Shown here one piece after another: positions 4,411-44,526 of a stretch of 44,526 bases of DNA. Each line of letters opens with the position of its first letter. Position 1 is the stretch's first letter. The translations under genes were made by a program, and so were the position numbers. Under the pieces are notes generated by a model. That model made no database searches. It saw nothing but the letters and a program-made list of their open reading frames with translations, and was not told where the DNA came from. Source of the stretch: an uncultured bacterium (lineage in GTDB: Bacteria > Bacillota > Clostridia > Oscillospirales > Oscillospiraceae); NCBI GenBank assembly GCA_949840775.1, contig CATKXO010000024.1, positions 1 through 44,526 on the forward strand, given 5' to 3'.

Positions 4411-5068
4411 CCGGCTGCTGTTCACCAAAACGGGGCGGGCCCGGTATATCTCTCACCTGGACCTGATGCGAACCTTCCAGCGGGCCTTTTCCCGGGCCAA
4501 AATTCCCATCAAGCACACCGAGGGCTTCAATCCCCACCCCTTTGTGTCCATCGCCCTGCCCCTGTCGGTGGGCTTCTCCAGCCAGTGCGAGATTTTGGAG
4601 TTCGGCCTGCTGGAGGGGACAAGCTATGAGGAGGTCCCGGAACGGCTCACCGCCGCCATGCCCGAGGGGATTGTCATCCACCAGTGCTACCCGGCGGAAC
4701 GAAAGTTGAAGGAATTGTGTTATGTCAACTATATCATGACCTTTGACTATCCGGAGGGCAGGCCCCAGGAGACGGAGCCCGCCATGGCCGCCCTGCTCAG
4801 TCGGGAGAGCCTGGTGGTAAAGAAGAAGTCCAACAAGGCCAAGGCAGGCTTTACAGAGGTGGACATCATTCCCTGTGTCCGCAGCTGGCGCATCGAGTGC
4901 CAGAGCGACACGATGATGGTGGACCTGGTCACCTCCGCCCAGAATCCCGGCCTGAATCCCGATTTGATCCGGGCCGCTTTCTGCGCCGAGTACCCGGAAT
5001 ATGTCCCCGATTTCGTCACTTTCCACCGCCGGGATGTGCTGGACGGGGAGGGGAAGTCCTTTCGGTAG
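4403..5068 (+). CDS. TIGR03936 / DUF2344 radical SAM-associated protein
   Basis: This 221-residue protein starts at GTG 4403, inside the end of the preceding gene and after a GGGGGAGGA ribosome binding site. The opening, with RYISHLDLMRTFQRAFSRA, and the following GFNPHP segment are hallmarks of DUF2344, the partner of the B12-type radical SAM protein upstream. No catalytic motif is visible, and a substrate-presenting or accessory role is inferred from the constant pairing. A longer open frame starting at 4049 lies antisense-like over the radical SAM gene in another frame and is not coding. Confidence 0.87.
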   Translation: MADRLLFTKTGRARYISHLDLMRTFQRAFSRAKIPIKHTEGFNPHPFVSIALPLSVGFSSQCEILEFGLLEGTSYEEVPERLTAAMPEGIVIHQCYPAERKLKELCYVNYIMTFDYPEGRPQETEPAMAALLSRESLVVKKKSNKAKAGFTEVDIIPCVRSWRIECQSDTMMVDLVTSAQNPGLNPDLIRAAFCAEYPEYVPDFVTFHRRDVLDGEGKSFR

Positions 5069-5093
5069 GCCGCCCCTACGAAGGAGAAACGTT

Positions 5094-5276
5094 ATGTATA
5101 CCTATGAGTATGAGCGAATCTATGTTGAGGGATTTATAAGTTTAAAAACAAAAAGGTATGAAGAAGTGATTACCCGCCGGGCGGAGGATGGCTGGCGCTA
5201 TGCCGGCTTTCTTCCTATTGTGTGGACGAATGGTGCCCTCACAGAGATAGATCTGATTTTTGAAAAGGAGGTGTAA
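5094..5276 (+). CDS. Small DUF4177-type protein
   Basis: This 60-residue protein has the DUF4177 pattern: an N-terminal YEYERI strand, then EEVITRRAEDGWRYAGF in the middle, and a C-terminal strand ending IDLIFEKEV. Members are small alpha/beta proteins of unknown role. The ATG has a good AAGGAG site 7 bases before it. The gene's own last codons (GGAGGTG) provide the ribosome binding site of the next gene, so the two are probably translated together. Confidence 0.75.
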   Translation: MYTYEYERIYVEGFISLKTKRYEEVITRRAEDGWRYAGFLPIVWTNGALTEIDLIFEKEV

Positions 5277-5279
5277 CCA

Positions 5280-5645
5280 ATGGAAAAACCCACCCAGCAC
5301 AGCCTGACCTGGACGGTGGACGACACCATGACCGCCAAGCGCATCGGGACGGCGGGGGCCAAGATTCTGTCCACCCCCAACATGCTGGCCCTGATGGAGG
5401 CCTGCGCTCTGGAGCTGGCCCAGGAGTATTTGGACGAGGGCATGACCACTGTGGGCGCCGAGGCCCACGTCCGCCACCTGGCCCCCACTCCTGTGGGGAT
5501 GCAGGTGACCGCCACTGCCACTCTGCGGGAGATCGAGCGGCGGAAAATGTGGTTTGACATCGAGGTCCGCGATGAGAAGGGCAAGTGCGGCGAGGGCTCC
5601 CACCTGCGGATTATGGTGCCCCAGAAAGACCGGAGCCAAGGCTGA
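5280..5645 (+). CDS. Hotdog-fold thioesterase, FlK-like
   Basis: This 121-residue protein matches the thioesterase family related to fluoroacetyl-CoA thioesterase FlK. It has the STPNMLALMEACALELAQ helix with its acidic residue, TVGAEAHVRHLAPTPVGMQV in the middle, and a terminal strand GEGSHLRIMV. Members hydrolyse acyl-CoA or act on short acyl groups. The physiological substrate here cannot be named. It ends the run of genes starting at 855. A riboswitch-controlled unit follows after a 30-base gap to its promoter. Confidence 0.78.
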   Translation: MEKPTQHSLTWTVDDTMTAKRIGTAGAKILSTPNMLALMEACALELAQEYLDEGMTTVGAEAHVRHLAPTPVGMQVTATATLREIERRKMWFDIEVRDEKGKCGEGSHLRIMVPQKDRSQG

Positions 5646-5675
5646 TTTTTTGGCGGAAAATTTATCCGGGCCCCC

Positions 5676-5704
5676 TTGACAAGGGAGCGAGGGTGTGGTA
5701 ATAT
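5676..5704 (+). promoter_or_regulatory. Sigma-A promoter of the riboswitch-oadB unit
   Basis: TTGACA (5676-5681), a 17-base spacer and TAATAT (5699-5704) sit just upstream of the structured leader. Transcription would start near 5711, at the base of the aptamer. Confidence 0.8.
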
Positions 5705-5709
5705 GCCCC

Positions 5710-5815
5710 ATACGACAAGGGGAGTAGTCAGCGCGCCTTAACTGGTGCGCGGCGCCAGTCAACAAGCATGTGCGGGCCGCGAGCCCGCTCTGGCTGCGTC
5801 TGAAATGACCAGACC
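5710..5815 (+). promoter_or_regulatory. yybP-ykoY-type (manganese) riboswitch aptamer
   Basis: The leader holds the family's signature AAGGGGAGTAG (5717-5727), a hairpin GCGCGCC/GGTGCGC, then GCCAG...CTGGC enclosing the conserved TCAACA segment and a GCGGGC/GCCCGC hairpin. It ends with ATGACCAGACC. This order matches the Mn2+-sensing yybP-ykoY RNA. The last bases of the aptamer (GACCTGTG) are also the first arm of the terminator at 5812-5847, so ligand-stabilised aptamer pairing would prevent termination. That predicts expression on metal. The ligand is inferred from family resemblance. Confidence 0.75.
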
Positions 5816-5847
5816 TGTGTTCCGAGTACTCGGAACACAGGTCTTTT
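5812..5847 (+). terminator. Riboswitch expression-platform terminator
   Basis: GACCTGTGTTCCGAG pairs perfectly with its complement across a 3- to 4-base loop and is followed by TTTTTT. It lies between the aptamer and the oadB-like gene, so it is a regulated attenuator rather than an operon end. Confidence 0.9.
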
Positions 5848-5901
5848 TTATATAGATATCGCAAAATTGGAAAGAATATCAGAAAAAAGGAGCGTATGTA
5901 T

Positions 5902-7047
5902 ATGGATTTTTCCTTCCTTTGGCAGGGGCTTCTGTCTATCTCCTGGCAGCAGCTGGTTATGTACGGCATCGGCGGCCTGTTGATCTGGCTGGCCATCGAA
6001 AAGGGGCTGGAGCCGGCTCTCCTTATGCCGATGGGGTTCGGGGCGATCCTGGTGAACCTGCCTTTATCCGGCGTGGTAGATCAGTTCAGCGCCGGCGTGG
6101 GGGAGACCCGCGGCATCATTCAGTGGCTCTTTGAGACGGGGATTGAGGCCAGCGAGGCCATGCCCCTGCTGCTCTTCATCGGCATCGGGGCCATGATCGA
6201 CTTCGGGCCTCTGCTGGCCAACCCCAAGCTCTTCCTGTGCGGCGCGGCTGCCCAGGCGGGCATCTTCCTCACCATTATCATCGCCGCGCTGCTGGGCTTT
6301 GACCTGAAGGACGCTGCCTCTATCGGCATCATCGGCGCCGCCGACGGCCCTACAGCCCTGATGGTGTCCCAAAGCCTGCGGTCCAGCTACGTGGGCGCCA
6401 TTGCCGTAGCCGCCTACTCCTACATGGCGCTGGTTCCCATCATCCAACCAGCCGCCATTAAGCTGGTCACCACCCGGCGGGACCGGGCGATGAAAATGGA
6501 CTACAGGCCCCAGAGTGTCACCCGTAGCATGCGGATTCTGTTTCCCATTGTGGTAACCGTCGTTGCCGGGCTGGTGGCCCCCGCTTCAGTGGCGCTGGTG
6601 GGATTCCTCATGTTCGGCAACCTGATCCGGGAGTGCGGCGTCCTTTCCTCACTGGCCAACACCGCCCGGAACGATTTGGCCAACCTGATTACGCTGCTGC
6701 TGGGGATTACCATTTCTTTTTCCATGAGGTCCGAGCAGTTTGTCCGGTGGGAAACTCTTCTGATTATGGGGCTGGGCCTGGTCGCCTTTGTGCTGGACTC
6801 TGTCGTAGGGGTTCTCTTTGTCAAGGCGCTGAACCTTGTAACGCCCGGCAGCCGGATCAACCCCATGGTGGGAGCGGCGGGGATTTCCGCGTTTCCCATG
6901 TCCTCCCGGGTGATTGAGAAGCTGGGGCAGGAGGCTGATCCTCAAAATCACCTGCTGATGCACGCCATTGCCGCCAATGTGTCCGGACAGATCGCTTCCG
7001 TAGTGGCGGGCGGCGTGGTGCTGCAATACTTTGCCAACATAGGCTAA
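5902..7047 (+). CDS. OadB/GcdB-like sodium-pump decarboxylase beta subunit
   Basis: This 381-residue polytopic membrane protein belongs to the beta-subunit family of Na+-translocating biotin decarboxylases (oxaloacetate, methylmalonyl-CoA, glutaconyl-CoA). Family landmarks are visible: GIGAMIDFGPLLANP, GAADGPTALMVS, the region IQPAAIKL, SRINPMVGAAGISAFPMSSRV, and a C-terminal segment with the HLLMHAIAANVSGQIASVV region. In known pumps this subunit carries Na+ and receives CO2 from carboxybiotin. Here no alpha (carboxyltransferase) or biotin carrier gene is near, only a tiny gamma-like peptide follows. An upstream metal-type riboswitch suggests a stand-alone or separately controlled role. ATG 5902 lies 9 bases after AAGGAG; the in-frame ATG at 5896 lies only 3 bases after it. 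Confidence 0.85.
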   Translation: MDFSFLWQGLLSISWQQLVMYGIGGLLIWLAIEKGLEPALLMPMGFGAILVNLPLSGVVDQFSAGVGETRGIIQWLFETGIEASEAMPLLLFIGIGAMIDFGPLLANPKLFLCGAAAQAGIFLTIIIAALLGFDLKDAASIGIIGAADGPTALMVSQSLRSSYVGAIAVAAYSYMALVPIIQPAAIKLVTTRRDRAMKMDYRPQSVTRSMRILFPIVVTVVAGLVAPASVALVGFLMFGNLIRECGVLSSLANTARNDLANLITLLLGITISFSMRSEQFVRWETLLIMGLGLVAFVLDSVVGVLFVKALNLVTPGSRINPMVGAAGISAFPMSSRVIEKLGQEADPQNHLLMHAIAANVSGQIASVVAGGVVLQYFANIG

Positions 7048-7064
7048 CAGGGGGGAAATAAAAG

Positions 7065-7187
7065 ATGAACGAAACACTGAGGCAGGCGGTAGAGCTGTTG
7101 GGACAGGGAATGCTGGGAATTTTCGTGGTGCTGGGACTGATTGCCCTGCTGGTGGTTTTGATGCAGAAGCTGAGCGGAAAAAGATAA
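7065..7187 (+). CDS. Tiny OadG-like gamma subunit (40 residues)
   Basis: The 40-residue protein has a short amphipathic start (MNETLRQAVELLGQG) and one membrane helix (GIFVVLGLIALLVVLMQKL). This is the shape of the gamma subunit that stabilises the beta subunit of sodium-pump decarboxylases. It lies 17 bases after the beta gene, with GGGGGGA upstream of the ATG. The usual zinc-binding, proline-rich C-terminal tail of OadG is absent, so it is a minimal version. Assignment rests on position and topology rather than on conserved residues. Confidence 0.65.
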   Translation: MNETLRQAVELLGQGMLGIFVVLGLIALLVVLMQKLSGKR

Positions 7188-7215
7188 GGCTCAAGGCATG
7201 AAAAGTGAAACAGCC

Positions 7216-7482
7216 TTACAGCCAGTCTGCTACCACATCGGCCAGCCCGGCGGGGCCCACCTGGTTGTCCACCAGAAGTGTCATCAGCTCGTCGATGCGC
7301 TGGGCGCTGGTGGTGATGGCGGGGATGGAGGCGTCGCTTCCGTGTTCCTCTGCAATATGGACCCCGTAGTTTTCGCAGAAGAGCTGGGCGGTTTCTTCCT
7401 GGTCAACGGTGAGGAAATAATGAAAGCAGCGCTGAGTTCCAACTGGGTCGGTACAATGGCGTGTTGCAATCTTGATCTCCAT
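7216..7482 (-). CDS. Small DUF6514-type protein
   Basis: This 88-residue protein resembles a family common in Oscillospiraceae: an N-terminal MEIKIATR strand, then FLTVDQEETAQLFCENYGV, followed by ITTSAQRIDELMTLLVDN and a C-terminal VVADWL. No function is known. The ATG at 7482 is preferred, after GAAGGGG. The longer open frame to 7662 crosses the promoter and is not coding. A palindrome lies at the predicted transcription start. The gene converges on oadG. Confidence 0.72.
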   Translation of the reverse strand: MEIKIATRHCTDPVGTQRCFHYFLTVDQEETAQLFCENYGVHIAEEHGSDASIPAITTSAQRIDELMTLLVDNQVGPAGLADVVADWL

Positions 7483-7498
7483 GATATAGTATCCCCTT

Positions 7499-7551
7499 CC
7501 CATCAAAAGACTTGATGGGCACATTATATAGTGTTTATCTCCACAGGGAAA
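7499..7551 (-). promoter_or_regulatory. Promoter and palindrome upstream of the DUF6514 gene
   Basis: On the minus strand TATAAT (7528-7523) has a poor -35 (TTTCCC, 7551-7546) at 17 bases. An 8-base inverted repeat, CCCATCAA/TTGATGGG (7499-7519), covers the expected start. It could be a 5' terminal RNA hairpin or an operator compensating for the weak -35. Confidence 0.5.
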
Positions 7552-7668
7552 GAGAAATATATCGCAGAAAAACAGGTCAAACGACGGTCTTCGCCAGAGG
7601 ATTTGCCGACAAGTGAAAGAATGCGTCGCCGCAGGGCGGAATTTCGGGAAAACTTTTAGCATAGAGCG

Positions 7669-7711
7669 GCCCCTGCCTGTAAAGACAATTACTTTACAGG
7701 CAGGGGCTTTT
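7669..7711 (+). terminator. Long perfect hairpin with T tract
   Basis: A 16-base perfect stem (7669-7684 with 7692-7707), a 7-base loop and TTTT follow each other on the plus strand, the form of an intrinsic terminator. No plus-strand gene ends directly before it. Its loop-proximal CTGTAAAG is shared with the second hairpin at 7773-7811. Confidence 0.55.
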
Positions 7712-7772
7712 CATAAAAACGCCGGTTATAAAAATTGTCGAATCTTCTGGAAAATTTCCAACGAATTGCAAT

Positions 7773-7811
7773 GAAACTCTCTGTAAAGGCAAAACCATTA
7801 CAGAGAGTTTC
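7773..7811 (-). terminator. Hairpin downstream of the small cysteine protein gene
   Basis: GAAACTCTCTGTAA (7773-7786) pairs perfectly with 7798-7811. It lies 8 bases past the stop of the minus-strand gene at 7820 and is the likely end of the ylbJ operon, although the following T tract (TTTCATT) is weak. Confidence 0.5.
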
Positions 7812-7819
7812 GTTATGTA

Positions 7820-8032
7820 TCAGAGCTTGAAATCCTCATCGGACAAAGGGCTGGAGGACAACTTTGCAGGGCGGGGTGGCACCCGCTTCAGAGGATCGTA
7901 GCGAAAAGCCCCACAGTGGGAGCCGGCGGACATGACCCCTCTCTTGGGACAGACCACCTGATCCTGGTCCAGCCCCCGTCCCCTGGCGCAGTAGGCACAG
8001 CGGGGCTCTATAGAAGTCTGAAACAGCTTCAT
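7820..8032 (-). CDS. Small conserved cysteine-containing protein
   Basis: This 70-residue protein has cysteines in CAYC, VCPKRG and SHCGAF, which could make a small zinc site. A basic segment, FRYDPLKRVPPRP, comes next, and the protein ends in an acidic DEDFKL. I have the impression of a conserved hypothetical protein of this bacterial group, with no known function. It follows ylbJ on the same strand after 40 bases, so it is probably co-transcribed. The AAGGAAGTG site before the ATG supports the start. Confidence 0.65.
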   Translation of the reverse strand: MKLFQTSIEPRCAYCARGRGLDQDQVVCPKRGVMSAGSHCGAFRYDPLKRVPPRPAKLSSSPLSDEDFKL

Positions 8033-8072
8033 GATGTGTCACTTCCTTATCATTTGGTCTTTGCAGTCACCA

Positions 8073-9254
8073 TTATACTACATGCCGTCCCTCTTTTCCA
8101 CTGTTTTTTTGCGCCACATAGACCGTCAGCGCCAAAAAAGCCAGCCATATCCCCCAGGAGACTACAGCGGAAATGGTGAGAGCCCGGTGGAAATCCAGTG
8201 TGGCGATGGCTTCCGTCTGCTCTGCCAGATAGACGGAGGCGGGGCTGCTCAGGGGGATGATCCGGAACAGCAACTGGACCAGTGCGGCGGAAAGAAGTCC
8301 GTGGAGCAGCTTGCCCGCCACATAGGTGCGGACGGACAGGCTGCTGTCCCCTAAAAAGGCCAGCACCTGGCAGTGGACAGACACCCCGGCCCAGCCCAGC
8401 ATGAACGCGGCCATGGACAGACGGCCAGGGAGGGCGCCGTCGGTGAGAGAGGTCACCCCGGAGGACACCTCCACCAGGCCGGTAAGCAGCCGCTCCGCCC
8501 AGGTCTGGTCCATCCCCAGAGGCGCCAACAGGAGGGAAAGAAAGCGCCCCAAAGCCTCCAGGATGCCGGCGTGGGCCAGGATGCGGAGGAAGACGGTGAA
8601 GAACAGGATGAAAGCGCAGATATTCAGACCGGACTGGAGGGCCCCGGTGACAGAGCTGACGAAAGCTTTGGAGAAGCGGACCGTCTGAAACTGGGGGCCC
8701 CGGCTGCGGCGAAGGCGCGGGCGCTCCTGTGGCTTGTAGAAGCGGAAGAGGACTCCCACTGCCAGCGAGGCCAGCAAATGGGCCAGATAAAGAAGCAGTC
8801 CCGCCCCGCCGCTGCCAAATACCCCTGCCCCCACCACGCCCAGGATGAAAGCGGGGCCGCTGTTGTTACAGAAGGCCAGCATTCGTTCCGCCTCGGTGCA
8901 GGAGCACTGACCGTTTTCGTAGATCTGGATAGCGGTCCGCGCTCCCACGGGGTAGCCGCCGATAAAGCCCAGGGCCAGAGCTGCGGCGCAGTTCCCGTTG
9001 ACCTGGAACAGCGGGACCATCACCGGTTCCAGCAGCTTGCCCAAGTATCGGGACATCCCCAGCTCCACCACCAGAGAGGACAGCACAAAGAAGGGGAACA
9101 GAGAGGGCAGGATTACGTTGCCGCACAGCTTGAGCCCGTCCCGCATAGCCCCTATGGCCTCTTCCGGCCACAGAATCAGCGACAGCGTGGCCCAGAGCAG
9201 GCCGATTCCCAGCAAAATGTCCCGGTACTGGGCCCTTCCCACAAGCCTTCCCAC
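8073..9254 (-). CDS. ylbJ: YlbJ sporulation integral membrane protein
   Basis: This 393-residue membrane protein has about eight to ten helices and nucleoside-recognition (Gate) domain features. Recognisable segments are PSLFPFFVLSSLV, LALGFIGGYPVGARTA, CNNSGPAFILGVVG and MLGWAGVSVHCQV. In Bacillus, ylbJ is sigma-E dependent and needed for heat-resistant spores. Start GTG 9254 follows GAGGTG by 6 bases. A minus-strand CATAGAGT at 9299-9292 resembles a sigma-E -10, but no convincing -35 precedes it. A 341-codon open frame on the plus strand over this gene is a shadow. Confidence 0.9.
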   Translation of the reverse strand: MGRLVGRAQYRDILLGIGLLWATLSLILWPEEAIGAMRDGLKLCGNVILPSLFPFFVLSSLVVELGMSRYLGKLLEPVMVPLFQVNGNCAAALALGFIGGYPVGARTAIQIYENGQCSCTEAERMLAFCNNSGPAFILGVVGAGVFGSGGAGLLLYLAHLLASLAVGVLFRFYKPQERPRLRRSRGPQFQTVRFSKAFVSSVTGALQSGLNICAFILFFTVFLRILAHAGILEALGRFLSLLLAPLGMDQTWAERLLTGLVEVSSGVTSLTDGALPGRLSMAAFMLGWAGVSVHCQVLAFLGDSSLSVRTYVAGKLLHGLLSAALVQLLFRIIPLSSPASVYLAEQTEAIATLDFHRALTISAVVSWGIWLAFLALTVYVAQKNSGKEGRHVV

Positions 9255-9338
9255 TCAGCGCACCTCGTTTCTCCGGAAAATCTTCTGTGGGACTCTATGC
9301 GAAGAAGAAGGTTTTCTTGCCTGTCCCAAAAGAAACGA

Positions 9339-9367
9339 TTGCAGGAACGGAAATTTTACAGTATAAT
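9339..9367 (+). promoter_or_regulatory. Sigma-A promoter of the DUF2804-rarA run
   Basis: TTGCAG (9339-9344), a 17-base spacer and TATAAT (9362-9367) lie 29 bases upstream of the DUF2804 start. The following genes to 13076 are overlapping or closely spaced, so this promoter may serve all four. Confidence 0.78.
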
Positions 9368-43680: not shown

Positions 43681-43735
43681 GTGATTTTAGCCCCCTTCGG
43701 GAACAAGAACGCGAAAAAATTGAGACCAATAGAAA

Positions 43736-43773
43736 AGGCTCCTGCCTGAAATTGTTATTTCAGGTGAGAGCCT
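43736..43773 (-). terminator. Intrinsic terminator of the broken cotJC-like gene
   Basis: On the minus strand AGGCTC...CCTGAAAT and ATTTCAGG...GAGCCT form a long stem over a 4-base loop, followed by TTTTCT. It lies 60 bases past the stop of the coat-gene fragment, so the gene's 3' end is otherwise intact. Confidence 0.8.
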
Positions 43774-43832
43774 ATGGTTTTTCAGATGAAACCGATCATC
43801 TTTGTTGGTAGATGGGTAATTTTCTTTGCGGT

Positions 43833-44080
43833 TTAACCCCGTACAGAGCCCTGGGACTGGATTTTGTCAAAGGCTGGGTTGGTGAGATAAACGTTCCGGG
43901 CATCCATCTTCTCTTTGCACAGGCGCAGGCACTCGCCAAAACGCTGGAAATGGACAATTTCCCGCTCACGCAGGAAACGGATGACGTTGTTCACGTCCGG
44001 GTCGTCGGACAGCCGCAAAATGTTATCATAGGTAAGACGGGCTTTCTGCTCTGGTGCAATCACGCAAGTGCAACCTGGGG
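43833..44080 (-). pseudogene. 3' fragment of a CotJC-like (manganese catalase-fold) spore coat gene
   Basis: The frame encodes IAPEQKARLTYDNILRLSDD, PDVNNVIRFLREREIVHFQ and RFGECL, then NVYLTNPAFDK. This is the conserved C-terminal region of CotJC and related manganese-catalase-like proteins (two-helix ferritin-type bundle). It has a GTG at 44063, but the same frame runs open upstream through the last codons of the recombinase gene, so it is the truncated 3' part of a longer gene, not a short gene. About 75-80 residues remain of about 190. The first two thirds are missing because the serine-recombinase element lies directly adjacent. Confidence 0.8.
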
Positions 44081-44526
44081 CTAAAAATTCCAGTGTATCT
44101 CAATGGGAACGTCACGAGTGCCAAGGATGCGCTTGCCTACAGTGATGTGGTCGATAAGGATTTCTACGATTTCCCGTGTCAAGTGTTCCAGGTTTACATA
44201 CCGCTCCACCAGGGCCTTTCGGTTGTCTCCCACGGCAATCCTGTCCTCCAGCTCCGCAAGCTGCCGCTGGCCGTCCAGCAGGATACGCTCCAGCCGGGAT
44301 TTTTCGGAGGAAAACTCTTTGGAGAGGGCGGAGAAGTCGCTGTTGTTGAGCAGGCCCTTGACTTTATCCATGTATAAATCCCGCAGGCCCTTGGTGTACT
44401 CTGTAATCTTCTTCTCGTAGGCGGAGAGGGTTTCCAAGAGCTGTCGTTTCTGGCCCTGGAGGTTTTCGCAAAACTCAATGCTCCGTTCCAACTCGTCCTT
44501 GTCCAGATACTCCGCCGCCAGCCGGT
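44081..44526 (-). CDS. Large serine recombinase, C-terminal part (runs off the window)
   Basis: The frame is open to the window edge. It carries a long coiled coil (SIEFCENLQGQKRQLLETLS, then EFSSEKSRLERILLDGQRQL) and the ending LTREIVEILIDHITVGKRI, then PIEIHWNF, typical of the C-terminal domain of large serine recombinases of the Tn/ICE and phage type. The catalytic resolvase domain and zinc ribbon would lie to the right, outside the window. The stop is 17 bases from the GTG of the broken cotJC-like frame, the usual location of such a gene at the end of its own element. The element extends to the right. Confidence 0.88.
   Translation of the reverse strand, partial: RLAAEYLDKDELERSIEFCENLQGQKRQLLETLSAYEKKITEYTKGLRDLYMDKVKGLLNNSDFSALSKEFSSEKSRLERILLDGQRQLAELEDRIAVGDNRKALVERYVNLEHLTREIVEILIDHITVGKRILGTRDVPIEIHWNF

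Follow-up and report, generated by a model that had tools for sequence, protein, structure and literature searches.

Recurrent splitting of the spore-coat gene cotJC by large serine recombinase elements in Oscillospiraceae, with probable restoration of the gene during sporulation

The skin element of Clostridioides difficile and Bacillus subtilis lies inside sigK, a mother-cell sporulation gene, and is excised to restore it. As described for C. difficile, the large serine recombinase (LSR) of skin is constitutive and control is provided by a directionality factor of the mother cell (PMC5025042). Other mobile elements described in sporulation genes include SPbeta in spsM, vfbin in spoVFB, gin in gerE, and yin in yabG (PMC5595907, PMC10747680, PMC4191935). 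In a survey of heterocyst-forming cyanobacteria, 10 of 87 interrupted genes had multiple elements, and nifD of Rivularia had four (PMC4874684). Distantly related LSRs are reported to be able to share one conserved site in one gene, and DUF4368 to mark mostly multi-targeting LSRs (63% of that clade vs 0.73% of site-specific ones) (PMC10083194). The C. difficile prophage phi027 is described as having its attachment site beside the gene of a CotJC homologue (PMC11222575, PMC12122855).

The DNA analysed here (the window) is a stretch of 44,526 bases and makes up the entire contig C24 of a 64-contig genome, 97% complete. At its right end, the 3' end of an LSR gene adjoins the last third of cotJC, a spore-coat gene whose product is Mn-catalase-like. 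The C-terminal 147 amino acids of the LSR are encoded at 44084..44526 (-), truncated by the contig end, and match DUF4368 (E=6.2e-9); the stop codon, TAG, is at 44081-44083 (-). A frame of 76 amino acids at 43833-44063 (-) matches Mn_catalase PF05067 (profile positions 147-198, E=1.3e-10). These two matches confirm what the earlier note had described at this end, an LSR gene abutting a cotJC-like 3' part, and the reading frame is open from 44080, 17 bases before a GTG at 44063, just as it had stated. Comparison with relatives shows that the cotJC-derived DNA starts with the GA at 44051-44050 and that the preceding 23 bases (44052-44074) are element DNA. These 23 bases (44052..44074, -) resemble the arms at the same border in relatives and would be the element-side arm, the left half of attP; where both element ends are known in relatives, the two arms are inverted repeats of each other. 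The GA (44050..44051, -) is the putative crossover dinucleotide and forms bases 1-2 of cotJC codon 137 (GAG), in which the window copy is cut; GA is found on both sides in 13 of 13 two-sided elements at this site, called site C below. As aligned to relatives, the 3' part of cotJC from codon 137 to the stop codon (43833..44051, -; PF05067) is in frame and free of internal stops. It is followed by a terminator-like hairpin with a T-rich tail (43736..43773, -), predicted by RNA folding; the fold of 43725-43790 has -22.2 kcal/mol and a z of -4.4, with none of 200 shuffles equally stable, and a simple terminator scan of the hairpin stretch flagged nothing. Over its 147 amino acids, the LSR fragment is 93.9% identical to its counterpart in the site-C cotJC element of G003, a related genome. 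Since the same junction recurs in many relatives, it is not due to chance, and in the window as in these relatives the insertion lies within the coding region of a sporulation gene, as that of skin does.

Across relatives, cotJC is cut recurrently near codons 32 (site A), 62-65 (site B), 137 (site C), and 176 (site D), as well as near codon 52 in G061. Site B comprises two clades of the LSR tree, with crossovers placed at nt 184-185 (B-I) and nt 193-194 (B-II). CotJC aligns with the Mn catalase 1jku, whose metal ligands we take to be E35, E66, H69, E148, and H181. By these presumed ligands, the ligand codons in cotJC are 35, 65, 68, 137, and 170; a ligand codon is itself cut at sites C and B-II, and every other site is at most 6 codons from one. 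The closeness is nominally significant (P 0.003-0.006), as a pattern that was looked for post hoc and that depends on the presumed ligand numbers. As to the sites being the most conserved DNA of the gene, there is no significance (P 0.16; site D at the 30th percentile).

The fetched stretches yielded 48 two-sided elements (49 intervals minus G010s_212, which joined two different gene copies) with lengths of 1.9 to 28 kb. All 48 have an LSR match, that is, the site-specific recombinase typical of a skin-like element, of which the window shows the C-terminal part only; in 41 of them the best LSR is at most 250 bp from an element border. In two elements, L207 (332 aa) and L210 (379 aa), the LSR frame appears to be short, and in G010 two stops fall within the last 13 residues of the LSR frame. 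The 5' part of cotJC lies at the far end of the elements, together with a short shared core. The crossover dinucleotide is specific to the lineage, being GA for C, D, and B-II and GG for A and B-I. When the gene halves are joined at this shared core, the frame is open again in all 47 elements and the two sides carry an identical dinucleotide, the crossover centres having been picked from these very data; L070, cut near codon 52, is outside the 47, its crossover position being ambiguous. In 42 of the 47, all 25 local residues of the joined gene are within the set seen in intact genes, whereas either side of the unjoined gene matches just 11-20 of the 25. The inverted-repeat arms of the rebuilt attP beat all but at most two of 200 shuffles in 28 of 48 elements (B 14/27, C 10/13, D 4/5, A 0/3); this analysis and that of start codons use longest-match cores, by which several joins are wrong or unusable (L071, L213_69, L227, L231).

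A CotJC match (query, CotJC of G012) is present in 56 of the 64 genomes of the genus; it is full-length in 17 and falls short of that in 39. By our reading of the search and alignment tables, the piece borders are at the recurrent sites in 37 of these 39, eight of the 37 having a single piece found. The remaining two are G010 and G074. G010 has an apparently intact cotJC over two contigs with an exact shared end of 77 bases, and a split copy as well; the split copy is 8 kb beyond the intact one (C114 end, C54; L145, L082, L083), and the two are 99% identical at their 3' ends and 91% identical in their middles. In G074 (contig C75, L116), cotJC is damaged and without an element, with two parts in different frames and a gap of approximately 14 codons near site C; it may be an empty site that was damaged. 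Among the 31 genus genomes that are at least 90% complete and at most 5% contaminated, cotJC is intact in nine, split only in 21 (in two of these as one piece), and both in G010. In the same 31, the control TyrS has a single full-length match in 29 (it is on two contigs in G006 and has a frameshift-like break in G075). For the control SpoIVA, 30 genomes have the ATPase domain, and 29 have it as a single stretch. No element parts either of the two control genes.

In the family, 358 of 399 genomes (at least 90% complete) match CotJC. Fifty-six split-looking genomes from 27 genera, which are not a random sample because they were picked by hand for looking split, were read in the same way, and in 55 of them the pieces end at the same sites; G189 is an unclear exception. 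Up to three elements are present in one cotJC gene. G356 has four pieces: three follow one another on a single contig, parted by elements at A and B-II, and the last, beyond the break at C, is on a different contig. In G175, G273, G113, and G260 the pieces from two serial breaks are on one contig.

In a tree of 48 LSRs, for which the program warns that long branches may join falsely, the LSRs of C (13) and A (3) are each behind a 100/100 branch, those of D (5) are behind a 90/81 branch, and those of B (26) fall into two clades. The site labels change four times on this tree, which is the minimum possible, against a shuffled mean of 19.7. Genus-wide, each of the 15 near-full-length LSR matches of at least 61% identity shares its contig with a site-C cotJC piece, as does the window fragment; the partial match of 61% in G053 has no site-C piece on its contig. 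The window LSR carries DUF4368, yet in the genus-wide search its lineage is confined to site C in cotJC. In viral contigs, six of ten loci found with the site-C LSR have a cotJC piece within 3.4 kb, two others end in or directly behind the LSR, and two are only 42-46% identical. Three viral contigs (L252, L253, and L254) have site-C LSRs beside a more distant cotJC (50-57% identity), apparently also cut at B, a pattern that may reach beyond Oscillospiraceae. A search of named phages with the site-C LSR gave 698 matching records, all below 60% identity.

The 5' part of cotJC is not visible to the right of the window junction, as the window is the entire contig. The earlier note had proposed a matching 5' part and core at the other end of the element, and both are found in relatives as shown above; in the assembly that contains the window, neither the direct 5' partner of the window piece nor the N-terminus of the window LSR was found. 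A search of this genome with the site-C LSR returned only the window fragment at high identity, the next listed match being at 45%. A serine recombinase at the end of contig C29 was considered as the missing LSR half and rejected as a short resolvase unlike the site-C LSRs. The same assembly does hold a 5' part of cotJC, codons 1-32 (contig C46, 2409-2504, -; PF05067 match), which is preceded by a cotJB-like frame, as judged by eye, and after codon 32 gives way to other sequence. Since this piece stops after codon 32, it is not the direct partner of the window 3' part, and since the two pieces do not meet, there are at least two breaks in cotJC of this genome. The second break, at codon 32, would also need removal. 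Codons 33-137 gave nothing at E up to 10 in a search of this genome run without a positive control; the region between the codon-32 and codon-137 pieces is either missing from the assembly or lost. The earlier note had foreseen neither the second break in this genome nor the several sites across the family.

Up to codon 196, internal stops are absent from all 244 cotJC pieces, which come from 200 loci, some of them split and others intact, with some genomes represented twice and tblastn pieces below 55% identity excluded. The omega of the 3' pieces after site C is 0.045 in split genes (n=20) vs 0.035 in intact genes of genus genomes (n=17), and in the other sets the median omega is somewhat higher for split (0.09-0.18) than for intact genes (0.04-0.11). 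The absence of stops and the low omega by themselves would also fit a recent insertion. At site C, close LSRs have a pS of 0.2-0.4 and the adjoining cotJC a pS of 0.4-0.9; since the LSRs are less diverged than the gene, these elements are mobile and the insertions may be young. There is no correlation between LSR and cotJC divergence at this site (Spearman 0.01, 120 pairs), which is read as horizontal movement. At site B, elements of like build recur within the genera g83 (four genomes), g30 (two), g51 (two), and g60 (two). In nine site-B pairs (a tenth pair, from site C and two genera, is kept out of this count), the LSR pS is 0.53-0.75 and the cotJC pS 0.34-0.83, with a cotJC omega of 0.00-0.10 where computable. 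The simplest reading, with some doubt as pS is near saturation, is that the site-B insertion predates the species split in each of these four genera, and that cotJC has been under purifying selection while split.

Cargo was characterised for ten proteins in all by a Pfam scan. The site-C element of G003 carries MobA_MobL and RepA_N, and with MobA_MobL it has the relaxase of an integrative and mobilizable element. Other cargo includes a pyrimidine nucleoside phosphorylase (G145), MatE with HATPase and HD-CE (G194), FeoB (G165), and a CspB-type protease (G271). The last is a subtilase with a CspB prodomain, accompanied by two neighbouring large frames, in a site-B element (L225, G271:C20:507800-518700, 4591-9340), so a spore germination gene seems to lie inside an element of a spore-coat gene. 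In genus g83, the site-B elements L208, L209, L210, and L220 are just 3.0-3.7 kb and consist of the LSR and a pyrimidine nucleoside phosphorylase-like frame, the identity of which was checked by Pfam on L209; here a housekeeping-type gene is within the intervening element.

Upstream of the cotJ operon, CATAGNNTG is common to 14 of 14 aligned intact loci. The motif CATAGNNTG presumably resembles mother-cell promoters. Inspection of 23 LSR upstream regions revealed no consistent motif of the mother-cell type, a result that is compatible with developmental control because in C. difficile the skin LSR is constitutive and the directionality factor belongs to the mother cell. Three site-C LSRs (G003, G007, and G260) have a sigma-A-like TATACT upstream, within an inverted repeat. 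In L071, L072, and L226, this repeat around the TATACT box before the LSR start is near perfect and is a possible operator. No directionality factor was identified in the elements, and a search for excised circles with the site-C attP pattern, run without a positive control, gave no match in viral contigs and none in 400 family genomes.

Overall, it is probable that these are skin-like intervening elements in cotJC that are removed during sporulation, restoring the gene. We infer the excision, its link to sporulation, and the use of a directionality factor from the anatomy of the elements, the in-frame join, the pairing of LSRs with sites, the divergence, and the selection described above. In the proposed scheme, an LSR lineage bound to a single site would insert its element in cotJC by recombination of attP with attB, at the GA of codon 137 in the case of the window, and cotJC would stay split in growing cells. 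During sporulation, most likely in the mother cell since coat genes are used there and its DNA is not inherited, the LSR and a directionality factor would recombine attL with attR at the same dinucleotide, by which the element would be deleted as a circle and the frame of cotJC would be unbroken again. The earlier note had suggested a restorable element of this kind, and the relatives speak in its favour with the 5' part at the other end, the shared core, the 47 of 47 joins, the many palindromic attP sites, and the purifying selection on both gene parts.

A different, unlikely explanation is that mobilizable elements or prophages use cotJC as a safe-harbour attB because its loss costs growing cells little; excision would then serve transfer, be infrequent and free of developmental control, and restore cotJC only by chance. 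The MobA_MobL and RepA_N of the G003 site-C element, the six viral contigs with the same LSR lineage beside cotJC, the movement of site-C LSRs between species, and the sigma-A-like TATACT before three of these LSRs would all fit. However, in four genera the divergence of the site-B elements is about that of cotJC, which has remained under purifying selection, and none of the 244 pieces has an internal stop. The lack of stops also argues against a passive insertion that inactivated cotJC and left its pieces as relics, as do the low omega, found also where element and gene have diverged alike, and the crossover dinucleotide kept at both junctions in 47 of 47. This reading, for which one could cite the middle of cotJC not found for the window alone and the damaged G074 copy without an element, is quite improbable.

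That the cotJC pieces are translated separately and act as a split protein is scarcely credible. Some in-frame start codon is present at most 120 bases upstream in 28 of 48 3' pieces, but a start codon with a Shine-Dalgarno-like motif is present in just two, which makes separate translation unlikely; in 20 of the 48, the upstream stretch up to a stop or to 120 bases has no in-frame start at all, and G356 would have to assemble one protein from as many as four pieces. An assembly artefact might be suspected since the LSR of the window runs off the contig end and many relatives are draft or metagenome assemblies. For the relatives it is already refuted: each two-sided element lies on a single contig, some of them in genomes that consist of one contig (G007, G145), the split genomes include named isolates, and the two control genes are not parted by elements. 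As an account of the whole, it has a negligible chance.

The larger finding is a spore-coat gene multiply split across a bacterial family. It seems fairly likely that in many genera of Oscillospiraceae cotJC is in two to four pieces, entered by at least five site-bound LSR lineages and requiring up to three mother-cell deletions for one coat enzyme, and that some of the elements, being small, old, and inherited with the gene, are a step towards a fixed host programme. In the accounts cited here, sporulation rearrangements are single elements in single genes; cotJC adds recurrent sites and dedicated recombinases in a major gut family. It can thus be tested why mobile elements settle in terminal-cell genes, by what means a cell coordinates several excisions, and whether elements that persist for long are taken up into development. 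The splitting is also relevant to annotation because cotJC looks absent or broken in many such genomes, and the elements offer many natural sets of recombinase and attachment sites.

In the literature searched, which was limited to open-licence PMC papers, no report of a split cotJC was found. The prophage phi027 differs from the elements described here in that, in the published descriptions cited above, the CotJC homologue is a separate bacterial gene downstream of attR and is not described as split. The window LSR departs from the reported DUF4368 trend (PMC10083194), since it has DUF4368 and its lineage keeps to site C genus-wide. Like skin in sigK, the cotJC elements are LSR elements inside a mother-cell sporulation gene; unlike skin, they target a coat enzyme gene at several sites with several LSR lineages and up to three elements per gene, and excision, known for skin, is here a probable outcome. 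Short shared cores and rebuilt genes are features common to SPbeta, vfbin, gin, yin, and the cotJC elements, whereas in the cited accounts of those four there is one element per gene and cotJC is not among the targets. The interruption elements of cyanobacteria, as far as they are described in the cited survey, are similar to those in cotJC in that several can be present in one gene used in a terminal cell, but they concern nitrogen fixation and employ both serine and tyrosine recombinases, while the 48 cotJC elements have LSRs only.
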